Assembly (NCBI GenBank): GCA_002938035.1
Contig: PTLH01000010.1
Coordinates: 1-34,047, forward strand
Origin: Alphaproteobacteria bacterium MarineAlpha3_Bin6
GTDB taxonomy: Bacteria > Pseudomonadota > Alphaproteobacteria > Rhodospirillales > UBA2165
Length of the DNA: 34,047 bases
Direction: 5' to 3'
The number at the start of each line of letters is the position of its first letter. The first letter of the stretch is position 1. A program made the translations under genes and the position numbers. Below, in pieces: positions 21,096-25,783 of the stretch. Below the pieces are notes generated by a model, which did no database searches, was not told the DNA's origin, and was given only the letters and a program-made list of their open reading frames with translations.

Positions 21096-22117
21096 AACTT
21101 CTTCAGGCTATGGCGGGAGCTGACTACGGAGGCGCCGAGGAGTTCTTTGTGCGTTTGGCAATTGCGTTAAATTCATCCGTTGTCCAACAACGAGTGGTTA
21201 TTCGAAAACATAAATTGCGAGCCAGCCAGTTGCGGGCAGGTGGAGTTGAGCCGGTTGAACTTGGTTTTGGAAGTCCTTTGGATGTCGCCACAAGATGGAG
21301 ACTAAGACAACAAATTTCCGAGTTCAAACCGGATATTGTCTTAACTTGGATGAACCGGGCAACAGCTATGTTACCCGCGCGTGGAAAGTTTTTACATGTT
21401 GGTCGATTAGGGGGTTACTACAATCTAAAGTATTACCGTGCCTGTGATCATCTGGTGGCTAACACCGAAGATATTGCCAACTATTTAAAAAACAATGGCT
21501 GGGGTGAGGACCAGGTTCATTACCTTCCCAATTTTGTAACAGCGAAAAGGGTACCCAAAATCAAGCGAAAAGAATTGTATACGTCGAATAATGCTACCTT
21601 GTTATTGGCTCTTGGTCGATTGCATGAAAATAAGGCCTTTGATGTTCTCCTTAAAGCATTCGCTCAGGTGCCAAACGCCTATCTTTGGATTGCGGGTGAG
21701 GGACCCTTGCGTGAAACCCTTGAAAGGGAAGCGGAAAGGCTTGGTGTTAGGCCAAGGATTCGTTTTCTGGGTTGGCGTCAGGATGTAGCGGCACTATATG
21801 AGACTGCCGATATCTTGGTATGCCCATCCCGACACGAACCGCTAGGTAATGTAATAATTGAGGGTTGGGCTCACGGTGTTCCTGTGGTGGCTGCCGATAA
21901 CTTGGGACCGGGTGCCCTAATAAAAGATGGAGAGACGGGGCTTCTATTTCCAGTAAATGATGCAAACGCATTAGCTGCTGCATTGAAAAGGCTGATTTCT
22001 AATGACGAGTTAGGTAGGAGGTTGGCTGAGAACGGGAAGAAAATTTACAAAAAAAAGTTTTCGGAAAAAATTGTCGTCGACAAGTACATTAAACTATTTG
22101 AACAAATGAGTTTATAA
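21092..22117 (+). CDS. Glycosyltransferase, family 4 (WaaG/RfaG-like)
   Basis: 341-residue GT4 enzyme. N-terminal domain begins LLQAMAGADYGGAEEFF; the C-terminal Glycos_transf_1 domain has LLALGRLHENKAFDVLLKAFAQ, WIAGEGPLRETLEREAERLG, IRFLGWRQDV and the donor-binding SRHEPLGNVIIEGWAHGVPVVA with the E-x7-E pair. This is a textbook retaining GT4 pattern. The start ATG overlaps the previous stop (ATGA), and the stop overlaps the asparagine synthase ATG (TAATG). Likely role: sugar addition to LPS core or O-chain. Confidence 0.9.
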   Translation: MKLLQAMAGADYGGAEEFFVRLAIALNSSVVQQRVVIRKHKLRASQLRAGGVEPVELGFGSPLDVATRWRLRQQISEFKPDIVLTWMNRATAMLPARGKFLHVGRLGGYYNLKYYRACDHLVANTEDIANYLKNNGWGEDQVHYLPNFVTAKRVPKIKRKELYTSNNATLLLALGRLHENKAFDVLLKAFAQVPNAYLWIAGEGPLRETLEREAERLGVRPRIRFLGWRQDVAALYETADILVCPSRHEPLGNVIIEGWAHGVPVVAADNLGPGALIKDGETGLLFPVNDANALAAALKRLISNDELGRRLAENGKKIYKKKFSEKIVVDKYIKLFEQMSL

Positions 22118-23883
22118 TGTGTGGGATTGTAGGTATTGCGCTCAAAGATGGCATGCCAGAAATATCAATTCTACACAAAATGATGTCAGCAATCGCTCAC
22201 CGTGGTCCAGACGGCTCTGGTCAAATTGTTAAAGACAAAGTCATTCTCGGCCATACGCGTCTTTCTATCATTGATTTAAAGACTGGAGATCAGCCAATTT
22301 CCAATGTGCAGGGTGACCAGATCATTGCAAATGGTGAGATTTATAATTTTGTTGAACTTCGAGACAGACTGGGCACGGATAACTTTAGCACTCTGTCCGA
22401 TTGCGAGGCCCCGTTAATACTGTTTCAAAGTCAAGGAAAAAAATTTTCTGAGGATATGCGGGGGATGTATGCAATCGCCATCGTGGAAGGTGACAGTGGA
22501 GAGATTTATCTTAGCCGAGATCGTTTCGGTATCAAACCGCTATATATTTGCGAAGACGAAAAGGGCTTAAGTTTTGCGTCCGAAATCGGCGCTTTGATAG
22601 AGGCTAATATCGTAAAGCCGGTTTTAAATACTTCTGTACGAGATCAACTTCTACAGCAGCAATTTACCCATGGTAAGGTGACGGCCATTAGGGGCGTTGA
22701 AAGAGTTCTTCCGGGGGAAACACTTCGTATTGGCGATGGAAAAATTATAGAACGTTTGCGGCATCCTGCGCTACCAATTGATAGCCCAGCTGACTGGAAT
22801 GAGGAAGAAGCAATAAAGCTATTGGACGATGCCCTGATGGACAGCGTAGCCGTCCATCAGAGGTCAGATGTGCCTTACGGGTTATTCTTATCGGGAGGAG
22901 TTGATTCCTCGGCGATACTTGCCTGTATGCGAGAACTTAACGACCGCCCTGTGGAGGCCTTTACGGCCGGTTTTAGCGGTACACAGGTGACGGATGAGCG
23001 TGCACATGCACAGACTGTTGCAAAAGCCGCGGGAGCTAATTTTTACGCAGTTGACTTCAATGAAGATGATTTTTGGAATTTACTTCCCACAATCGTAGGG
23101 TGCCTTGACGATCCCACTAGTGACTATGCCGTGCTTCCAACGTTCAAGTTGGGAGCGCTTGCTCGTGAACGAGGTATAAAGGTGGTGCTTACCGGGGAAG
23201 GGGGAGACGAACTTTTTGCTGGTTACGGGCGTTATCGCCGATTAATGCGGCCTTGGTGGATGGGGGGGCGCCCGATGCGCCATAAAGGCATTTTTGAAGG
23301 AAGTGGTATTTTGAGAGAACCCGCTGGTTCTTGGAATACCCCGGATCTTATAAATACGTCCCACCGGTCTTGGACCAGGCTACAACAGGCTCAGGCCACA
23401 GATTGTGCGGGTTGGTTGCCTAATGACCTACTTATCAAGCTCGATCGCTGTTTGATGGCCCATGGTGTAGAGGGACGAACCCCGTTTCTTGATTTAGAGG
23501 TGGCGAATATAGCGATGCGTCTGCCAGATCGACTTAAAATCCGAAATAACTTGGGCAAATATATCCTTCGAAAATGGTTAAATAAAAAGTTTCCCGAGGC
23601 GAAACCTATGAGCCCTAAAAAGGGATTTAGTGTTCCCGTGGCGGAGTGGATTTCCAAAAAAGCAAGATTAAGTGGCGAGCTTGTTGCTGCGCAACCTTGC
23701 ATTGAAGAAATCGCAAATGCCGGCAGAGTTAGGGCTCTTTTTTCTAGCTTAGATGGAAACCCCAACCGTAAGGCCGGACAAATGGCGTGGACACTGCTAT
23801 TTTATGCTCTTTGGTACCGTTTTCATATCGATCGCAAACCGTGTGACGGAGACGTTTTTGACAACCTATCAATTGCGAACTGA
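22117..23883 (+). CDS. asnB: Asparagine synthase (glutamine-hydrolysing), AsnB family
   Basis: 588-residue class II glutamine amidotransferase plus ATP-pyrophosphatase. The N-terminal nucleophile Cys2 follows the initiator Met (MCGIVGIAL), with AHRGPDGSG and the GEIYNFVELR segment completing the glutaminase domain. The synthetase domain has the PP-loop SGGVDSS at 259-265 and GEGGDELFAGYGRY. The enzyme makes asparagine from aspartate, or amidates another carboxylate. It ends an LPS glycosyltransferase operon and overlaps the previous stop by 1 bp. AsnB-like proteins in such operons often amidate sugar acids or related groups, so a dedicated surface-glycan role is possible (inference). Confidence 0.92.
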   Translation: MCGIVGIALKDGMPEISILHKMMSAIAHRGPDGSGQIVKDKVILGHTRLSIIDLKTGDQPISNVQGDQIIANGEIYNFVELRDRLGTDNFSTLSDCEAPLILFQSQGKKFSEDMRGMYAIAIVEGDSGEIYLSRDRFGIKPLYICEDEKGLSFASEIGALIEANIVKPVLNTSVRDQLLQQQFTHGKVTAIRGVERVLPGETLRIGDGKIIERLRHPALPIDSPADWNEEEAIKLLDDALMDSVAVHQRSDVPYGLFLSGGVDSSAILACMRELNDRPVEAFTAGFSGTQVTDERAHAQTVAKAAGANFYAVDFNEDDFWNLLPTIVGCLDDPTSDYAVLPTFKLGALARERGIKVVLTGEGGDELFAGYGRYRRLMRPWWMGGRPMRHKGIFEGSGILREPAGSWNTPDLINTSHRSWTRLQQAQATDCAGWLPNDLLIKLDRCLMAHGVEGRTPFLDLEVANIAMRLPDRLKIRNNLGKYILRKWLNKKFPEAKPMSPKKGFSVPVAEWISKKARLSGELVAAQPCIEEIANAGRVRALFSSLDGNPNRKAGQMAWTLLFYALWYRFHIDRKPCDGDVFDNLSIAN

Positions 23884-24008
23884 AGATAGCTGATTTATTG
23901 TTTTAAATATTTTAGACAAATCTTCTGCACTAGTGTGAGAGGCTACTGTGAATTTAATCAAAATTGAAGAAAGCAAAGGATAACAATTTGCTTCTGGCGG
24001 GATAACTT

Positions 24009-24665
24009 TTGGCAGAACAGAACCAATTAATATTGCCCGAACCCATGGAACACCTGACCGATGAGGAGTGGGAGGATGCTGGTTTTACCCGTGCGCAATT
24101 TGAAAATCGATGGCGTGCACGACTGGAACGTGACAGGTTTTCACCGGAAACAGGTTCTCCTGCCCCGAATTTTATCCTAGAGGTTTTAACGTCTGAGGGT
24201 AAACGTTCTGGTGAGCTATTCCAGCTTTCTTCTTTATTTGGGAGGCCCATCGGTCTGGTATTTGGCTCCTACACGTGACCACCTTTCAGGGAAAAGGCCG
24301 TGCGCCTTATCAAAATTTCTAAAGAACTAGAAGATCAAGCAGAGTTTTGTTGCGTTTACATAAAAGAAGCCCATCCATTGGATGGGTGGGTTCTACCTGA
24401 TAATACCTTAGAGGGTATCGAAGTGGAGAGCCCCGACACAAAAGAAGAGCGAGCTGCCGTAGCCGCTATCTGTATGTTGCGTTACAACTTTCCGTTTCGC
24501 ATGGTGCTTGATAGTATGACCGATGAGGCAGAGGAAAAATACCGGTCCGAGCCAGATCGGCTCTACGTAATTGATGCTGAAGGCAAAATAGCTTGGAAGT
24601 CCGGCCTGGGGCCTTTTTATTTTGATGTGGAAGGTTGGTATGAGGCATTAAAGAAGGAGGTCTAA
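24009..24665 (+). CDS. Deiodinase-family selenoprotein (in-frame UGA = selenocysteine)
   Basis: 218-residue thioredoxin-fold protein read through TGA at 24276-24278 (residue 90). Before the TGA: SPAPNFILEVL and GLVFGSYT; after it, in the same frame: PPFREKAVRLIKISKEL, YIKEAHPLDGW, LYVIDAEGKIAWKSGLGPF. These match iodothyronine deiodinases (FGSCT-U-PPF, EAHPSDGW, GxGP). Ser87, Tyr117, Glu120 and His122 lie at U-3, U+27, U+30 and U+32, the spacing I recall for the vertebrate Dio3 catalytic network; the thyronine-contacting His at about U+49 is absent, so thyroid hormone is not the expected substrate. A redox or reductive dehalogenation role is possible but unproven. The start is TTG 24009 (GGCGGGA upstream) or ATG 24045. 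No signal peptide is seen. It lies 125 bp after asnB and just before pyrC. Confidence 0.88.
24276..24278 (+). other. Selenocysteine codon TGA
   Basis: In-frame TGA between GSYT and PPF codons, at the exact selenocysteine site of the deiodinase family. The reading frame stays open for 129 further codons with conserved family motifs. Confidence 0.85.
24284..24314 (+). promoter_or_regulatory. Candidate bacterial SECIS hairpin
   Basis: GAAAAGGC (24291-24298) pairs with GCCTTATC (24304-24311), 7 of 8 positions with one A-A mismatch, around the loop CGUGC (24299-24303). The loop starts 21 nt after the UGA and has G at its second position, within the general bacterial SECIS rule (loop 16-37 nt downstream, G in the first two loop bases). 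TTT at 24284-24286 can extend the stem with AAA at 24312-24314 across a 4-nt bulge. Pairing was done by eye, with no energy calculation. Confidence 0.6.
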
Positions 24666-24697
24666 ATCTCATTTTTTTGCATAATGTAGATGCTTCC

Positions 24698-25783
24698 ATG
24701 AAGGTAGGAAAATCCATTATTTCTAATAATATCAAAGAATTAATTATTCGCCGTCCAGATGATTGGCATGTTCATCTGCGGGAGGGTTTGCTGCTTGAGG
24801 CGGTATTGCCCTTCACGGCAAGGCAATTTGCGCGAGCAATCGTCATGCCCAATCTGACGGAACCCGTGACAAACACCATTGAAGCTGAAGGTTACCGAAG
24901 TCTCATATTGAAGGCGTTAGCTAAAGAAAATGTGACGAGAGAGTTCATTCCCTTGATGACGGCGTACTTAACCGACATGACAAAGGCTAGCGACCTTGCG
25001 AGAGGTTACAGTGAAGGTATTTTTGCAGCTGCAAAGCTTTATCCGGCTAATTCTACTACCAATTCGGCCCACGGAGTGTCGGATATGGCCAAGTTAAAAG
25101 CAGTATTAAATAAGATGGAAGACATCGGTATGCCACTTCTCATCCATGGTGAAGTAACTGATGCAGCGGTGGACGTGTTTGACCGGGAGGCAGTCTTCAT
25201 CCGTAAAATTCTTAAACCCTTGATAAATGAATACCCAAAACTAAAAGTCGTTTTAGAGCATATCACCACGAGTGACGCGGTCGACTTTGTTAGTTCTATG
25301 AAGGGTAAAGTGGCTGCTACTATCACGGCTCATCACCTGATTATAAACCGGAATAGCCTATTTCAGGGGGGCTTCCAGCCGCACAATTATTGTCTACCAG
25401 TGGCAAAGCGGGAACGGCATCGAATGGCTCTCCGAAAGGCAGTTACATCTGGTGACCCGTGGTTTTTTCTCGGTACCGATTCGGCACCTCACACAATCAA
25501 AGATAAGGAGACGAATTGCGGTTGCGCTGGTATATTTTCGGCGCCTTCGGCTCTTGAGCTATATGCAACAGTATTTGAAGAGGAAGGTGTGATTGAAAAA
25601 TTTGAAAATTTTGCCTCGATTTATGGCCCCGCCTACTACGGCCTTGAAATCAACGCTGGAACGGTAACACTAACACGCGAAGAATGTATGGTACCTCAGC
25701 GTGTGACCGTCGCTGATGGAACAGAGATTAAGCCATTCTTAGCAGGAAAAGTTCTGGGTTGGAGGCTAAAAGATAAACCATAA
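24698..25783 (+). CDS. pyrC: Dihydroorotase (class II, PyrC)
   Basis: Zinc amidohydrolase of pyrimidine synthesis: reversible cyclisation of N-carbamoyl-aspartate to dihydroorotate. The 361-residue protein has the first metal-binding motif DDWHVHLRE (His24, His26), the carbamylated-lysine segment AAKLYPANSTTNS, the ligand histidines in LLIHGEV and VLEHITT, and the catalytic Asp in LGTDSAPH. All are PyrC hallmarks. ATG 24698 is used here; an in-frame TTG at 24677 and even ATT at 24671 are closer to a strong AAGGAGG (24654-24660) at the end of the selenoprotein gene, so the true start may be upstream. It sits 32 bp after that gene and is probably cotranscribed with it. Confidence 0.93.
   Translation: MKVGKSIISNNIKELIIRRPDDWHVHLREGLLLEAVLPFTARQFARAIVMPNLTEPVTNTIEAEGYRSLILKALAKENVTREFIPLMTAYLTDMTKASDLARGYSEGIFAAAKLYPANSTTNSAHGVSDMAKLKAVLNKMEDIGMPLLIHGEVTDAAVDVFDREAVFIRKILKPLINEYPKLKVVLEHITTSDAVDFVSSMKGKVAATITAHHLIINRNSLFQGGFQPHNYCLPVAKRERHRMALRKAVTSGDPWFFLGTDSAPHTIKDKETNCGCAGIFSAPSALELYATVFEEEGVIEKFENFASIYGPAYYGLEINAGTVTLTREECMVPQRVTVADGTEIKPFLAGKVLGWRLKDKP

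Follow-up and report, generated by a model that had tools for sequence, protein, structure and literature searches.

A predicted deiodinase-like selenoprotein with a recoded UGA codon in the marine alphaproteobacterium MarineAlpha3_Bin6

The contig segment of 34,047 nucleotides analysed here (the window) from Alphaproteobacteria bacterium MarineAlpha3_Bin6 almost certainly carries the gene of a deiodinase-like selenoprotein (Table 1). Judging from the UGA codon, a hairpin downstream of it, the tRNA-Sec and SelD, which were all assessed at the sequence level, we put the probability that the UGA is read as selenocysteine (Sec, U) at about 0.97. The agreement of the Pfam and PDB searches, the predicted fold, tRNA-Sec, SelD, the SECIS element and the homologs makes it well supported that the gene encodes a real protein of the deiodinase family with a recoded UGA. 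The explanation as a whole, a Sec-decoded PF00837 protein that would act through selenolate chemistry, is regarded as highly probable.

Table 1. Features of the deiodinase-like gene and its direct neighbours (positions within the window)
Feature	Position	Strand	Evidence or remark
Asparagine synthase (glutamine-hydrolysing), upstream neighbour	22117..23883	+	PF00733, PF13537; end of glycosyltransferase cluster
Deiodinase-like selenoprotein gene	24009..24665	+	218 aa and stop; TTG start; PF00837, 107.3 bits; Dio2/Dio3 matches
Ser87 (U-3), deiodinase network	24267..24269	+	Invariant in 39/39 loci; role of Dio2 equivalent in PMC11592359
UGA, predicted selenocysteine 90 (GSYT-U-PPF)	24276..24278	+	TGA at same codon in 39/39 loci
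Bacterial SECIS hairpin, starting 15 nt past UGA	24294..24308	+	Compensatory pairs; synonymous-recoding test
Tyr117, Glu120, His122 (U+27, U+30, U+32), deiodinase proton relay	24357..24374	+	Invariant in 39/39 loci
Cys155 (U+65), clade-specific conserved, candidate resolving thiol	24471..24473	+	Cys in 38/39 loci, one gap
Dihydroorotase-like amidohydrolase (PyrC), downstream neighbour	24677..25783	+	PF01979; related amidohydrolase neighbour in several relatives

Reading frame and family membership

As the preliminary description had proposed, conventional gene calling breaks the gene at the TGA, leaving an open reading frame (24009-24278) of 89 codons that begins with TTG, which is likely, but not certain, to be the start codon. 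The TGA was the sole interruption of the frame, and its translation as U adds 128 further residues up to the TAA codon at 24663-24665. The TGA thereby falls, as claimed, exactly on the selenocysteine site of the deiodinases, with U as residue 90 of 218, and the C-terminal motifs VLDSM, RLYVI and GLGPF named along with it are all present in the protein.

The Pfam search of the joined protein suggested in the preliminary description assigned residues 15-215 to the T4_deiodinase family (PF00837), the score lying far above the gathering cut-off of 27 bits. A sequence search against the PDB returned only mouse Dio2 (8.4e-20) and Dio3 (1.1e-18), and both alignments span the UGA, placing T-C-PPF opposite T-U-PPF and sharing VYI-EAHP-DGW. 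Furthermore, the AlphaFold model (pLDDT 90.8) was matched best by 9h48 and 4tr3 (Dio2 and Dio3) in a Foldseek search, followed by ResA-type thioredoxins and peroxiredoxins. The NCBIfam model NF038285 (deiodinase_rel), which covers a protein of 347 rather than 218 residues, scored 161.3 bits (E 4e-47) and hence below its curated cut-off of 250.

In a tree of 48 rows the PF00837 proteins split into two sides with a support of 99/98. The first side holds the vertebrate deiodinases, the Sec clade of the window protein with the Cys orthologs of that clade, and Cys proteins from another class that have hydrophobic N-terminal stretches, while the second comprises Cys paralogs (two of them from the host genome), a group with an in-frame TGA and a UxxC motif, and an actinobacterial protein. 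Since the tree has several long branches, a midpoint root and only two animal fragments, we make no claim on the origin of the family. The suggestion of an ancestral-type enzyme thus found no backing, as this rough tree places the clade on the side of the vertebrate deiodinases and its root is unreliable.

The UxxC proteins L100 and L101 (G728:C12, G642:C147; GSFT-U-PYC) are distant PF00837 relatives that resemble the window gene in having their own in-frame TGA at the same column, but they lie across the well-supported split, together with the Cys paralogs. Because the window clade differs from this UxxC type, the bacterial deiodinase-like class comprises at least two distinct groups with an in-frame TGA.

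Among the other PF00837 proteins, the two host paralogs (L056 and L057; G000:C155, G000:C92) are distant Cys deiodinase-like proteins with GS-T-C...VYVREAHPG and long C-terminal extensions. The Cys deiodinase-like proteins L075-L079, which come from one family in a different class of the phylum, show several hydrophobic N-terminal stretches and the motifs NFGSYSCPHH...GDQGPFGYEP.

Conservation of the selenocysteine codon among homologs

Matches to PF00837 were detected in 24 of 80 related genomes. The window's own family mostly carries one to three copies per genome, each with exactly one in-frame TGA. We extracted 39 non-duplicate loci from more than 20 genomes, nearly all of the same bacterial family, the locus L020 stemming from a proteobacterial assembly without family assignment. 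GSYT-U-PP is read in all 39, and Gly U-4, Ser U-3, Tyr U-2, Thr U-1, Pro U+1, Pro U+2, Arg U+4, Arg U+9, Tyr U+27, Glu U+30 and His U+32 are invariant. The motif following U is U-P-P-F/Y throughout the Sec clade, with no Cys at U+3. The isolate Rhodospirillales bacterium AH-558-E05 of the same genus encodes a protein of 91% identity, and four or more other alphaproteobacterial families likewise contain the Sec form, whereas PF00837 matches of any kind are rare across the phylum (10 of 399 genomes).

The search for homologs with U or Cys proposed in the preliminary description also recovered Cys orthologs, L098 (GSYTCPIYR) and L099 (GCYTCPVFR), whose Cys occupies the column of U, as it does in the paralogs. 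Homologs that all stop at this codon, which the description had named as a finding that would speak against it, were not what we observed; the frame past the TGA is conserved among them. For two well-diverged pairs the dN/dS ratio downstream of the TGA was 0.07-0.08, indicating conservation as protein. Close pairs were uninformative in this respect, and only diverged pairs were used, since the two halves of the gene differ in synonymous divergence in some pairs. A TGA arising by chance is excluded, as 39 loci share the codon and the part downstream of it is conserved as protein.

Lower synonymous divergence 3' than 5' of the UGA was seen between the window (24000-24665) and L018 and in a few other close pairs, and not in the diverged pairs; it probably reflects local recombination or chance. 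The loci L111 (G746:C36:23310-23678) and L112 (G723:C112:2308-2676) hold the C-terminal half only, without the Sec site, and begin exactly at the SECIS stretch (AVRL...); we consider them partial duplications or remnants. The Sec copy of L020 (CAJWOS010000457.1) is located at a contig end and shifts frame after about 140 residues, with a protein-kinase-like frame following it; this contig is possibly chimeric. No relatives were found in phage records or viral contigs, and the plasmid collection yielded only a distant actinobacterial Cys protein (24.7%).

A bacterial SECIS hairpin downstream of the UGA

The stem of the hairpin is formed by AAGGC (24294-24298) and GCCTT (24304-24308), which enclose the apical loop CGTGC (24299-24303; CGGGC in two sequences), a loop containing G. 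In the 36 distinct sequences 89.4% of the pair cells of a six-pair stem were formed, compared to 76.0% after shuffling and 25-51% when the stem was slid to other offsets, and 32 cells had both sides changed, compared to 10.2 expected from the shuffles. The same stem of five pairs was predicted by RNAalifold without guidance.

As the stem lies within a coding region, every sequence was additionally recoded synonymously according to its own codon use. The natural sequences formed 171 of 180 pairs, whereas in 300 such trials the average was 123.8 (sd 4.8, maximum 138). For the Val in the loop all 37 sequences use GTG, although this codon accounts for about a quarter of the Val codons elsewhere in these genes. 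The minimum free energy alone (-10.3 kcal/mol vs -9.4 kcal/mol for the recodings) sets the SECIS poorly apart from the synonymous recodings; the case is made by the pairing and by the compensatory changes. Since its compensatory conservation exceeds the level of synonymous recoding, we assign the hairpin as a bacterial SECIS element; none of the Rfam models matches it. In E. coli the recruitment of SelB by such a hairpin is an established mechanism. By analogy, the SECIS of the window gene would recruit SelB with Sec-tRNA-Sec to the UGA.

Selenocysteine machinery of the host and its relatives

The host genome encodes a tRNA-Sec (79.4 bits, anticodon TCA), and its SelD is a selenoprotein as well, the reading frame containing a TGA at SHGGG-U-GCK. 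The check for Sec machinery called for in the preliminary description was thus successful for these two components and failed for selA and selB, neither of which was found in the host assembly (89% complete, 179 contigs) or seen beside the tRNA-Sec. The absence of selB, which the description had listed as evidence against a selenoprotein, therefore applies formally to an incomplete assembly. The only congener searched (66% complete) likewise lacks selA and selB, and no tRNA-Sec of full score was seen in it.

The relatives suggest that this absence is likely an assembly gap. Among the 21 genomes with TGA copies 15 carry selA, the remaining six all being less than 90% complete, and both selA and selB are present in all seven such genomes of at least 90% completeness. 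Since the two genes form one locus in the relatives, a single gap would remove both. Likewise, neither selA nor selB was found in G002 and G012, two members of the family without a PF00837 match.

The three genomes G741, G812 and G658 (loci L141, L139, L140), which belong to another family of the same class, show a gap of 33 bases between the end of the Sec gene and selA, and selB follows selA directly on the same strand. The deiodinase-like gene is thus physically tied to the Sec machinery in these genomes, where a dio-selA-selB operon is possible.

Comparison with the vertebrate deiodinases

The window protein shares with the vertebrate Dio1-3 the thioredoxin fold, the UPPF motif, Ser U-3, Thr U-1, Tyr U+27, Glu U+30, His U+32 and the side of the tree, with an identity of 29-30% in the structural alignment. 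Five of the six Dio2 relay residues whose roles have been described (PMC11592359), namely Ser127, Thr129, Tyr157, Glu160 and His162, are matched, whereas the sixth, His182 (His219 in Dio3), aligns with Pro at U+52. The preliminary description was right that the His contacting the thyronine is missing, U+49 being Val, with His there in only one of the 39 homologs. It had also claimed a catalytic network at U-3, U+27, U+30 and U+32: Ser87, Tyr117, Glu120 and His122 are indeed all present, but they are not specific to deiodination. As distant Cys paralogs retain these residues as well, we take them as a shared active-site architecture and not as proof of deiodination.

Further differences concern the cysteines, the N-terminus and the SECIS element, which is of the bacterial type in the window gene and of the eukaryotic type in the vertebrate genes. 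The position U-2, occupied by Cys in Dio1 and Dio3 and by Ala in mouse Dio2, is Tyr in the window protein and in all 39 loci; in Dio1 this residue (Cys124) is needed for the re-reduction by GSH (PMC9141512). Conversely, U+65 is Cys in the window protein and not in Dio2 and Dio3. Inspection of the sequence revealed 45 mostly polar N-terminal residues with predicted short helices and no hydrophobic segment of the kind that anchors the vertebrate enzymes in the membrane, and the protein is probably cytosolic.

Possible function

The selenol of Sec90 would lie in a peroxiredoxin-like thioredoxin fold beside the Ser/Thr/Tyr/Glu/His proton relay known from the vertebrate deiodinases. We infer an attack of the selenolate on a small organic substrate, with a Se-X intermediate as product; most likely a halogen or other leaving group would be removed reductively, a peroxide being the next candidate, and the intermediate would be re-reduced through a thiol. 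Since the U-2 Cys of Dio1 is replaced by Tyr, Cys155 is the best candidate for the selenenyl-sulfide partner.

That the protein reductively dehalogenates haloaromatics of natural marine origin or other organohalides is a tentative proposal, falling somewhat short of probable. It is in line with the retained relay residues and with the genes adjoining other copies, which include a LigB ring-cleavage dioxygenase, TRAP components, acyl-CoA dehydrogenases, enolase-superfamily and enoyl-CoA hydratase genes and regulators of the LysR or IclR type. These neighbourhoods lean towards small-molecule catabolism, but the genes differ among the copies and the sample has no background control. The Pro in place of Dio2 His182 also argues against a dehalogenase, as does the position of the window copy between a polysaccharide cluster and pyrC, an arrangement with asparagine synthase and pyrC that is common to several relatives.

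Slightly less likely is a selenol peroxidase or thiol-disulfide redox enzyme, in which Sec90 would reduce peroxides or disulfides and the likeness to deiodinases would be one of fold and ancestry only. A redox role has been suggested before (Zhang 2005, PMC1088965), and it would agree with the structural matches to ResA, thioredoxins and peroxiredoxins, an AhpC-TSA match of 20.6 bits (below the cut-off of that profile), the network residues common to Cys paralogs and the conserved Cys U+65 as potential resolving Cys. The Sec clade, however, has neither a UxxC nor a CxxC motif, its best matches are Dio2 and Dio3 by sequence and by structure, and several copies adjoin catabolic genes and LysR/IclR regulators instead of stress genes.

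A pseudogene, or a sequencing error of TGA for TGC or TGT, with only the short N-terminal frame being made, would fit the lack of selA and selB in the host assembly but is hardly credible and in practice refuted by the homologs: 39 loci from many assemblies share the TGA, the frame beyond it is conserved and the SECIS shows compensatory changes. The tRNA-Sec and the Sec-containing SelD of the same genome also speak against it.

Significance

Bacterial deiodinase-like selenoproteins have been known since 2005, and the window gene is one more of them. The Sargasso Sea yielded four Sec and six Cys proteins of Pfam00837 (Zhang 2005, PMC1088965), and the Global Ocean Sampling data 22 Sec and 21 Cys proteins (Zhang and Gladyshev 2008, PMC2398784). 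Compared by description only, these marine proteins resemble the window gene in being bacterial Pfam00837 members with UGA as Sec, a SECIS directly downstream and Cys homologs; current reviews include them with the family motif UxxC, whereas the 2008 table gives no motif and the window protein has U-P-P-F. Our literature search found no biochemical test of a bacterial deiodinase-like Sec protein.

Annotation pipelines will split or miss the window gene and its numerous relatives. In the set assembled here the SECIS motif accompanies more than 50 Sec copies; the set further includes Sec and Cys orthologs as well as copies directly upstream of selA-selB, and it offers clear targets for the role of deiodinases outside animals, a question standing since 2005. 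It seems unlikely, on balance, that the clade represents a Sec-based reductive dehalogenation of marine organohalides on the branch of the animal deiodinases, with a re-reduction cysteine of its own; if true, the family would have a dehalogenation chemistry that is independent of thyroid hormone and perhaps older than it.
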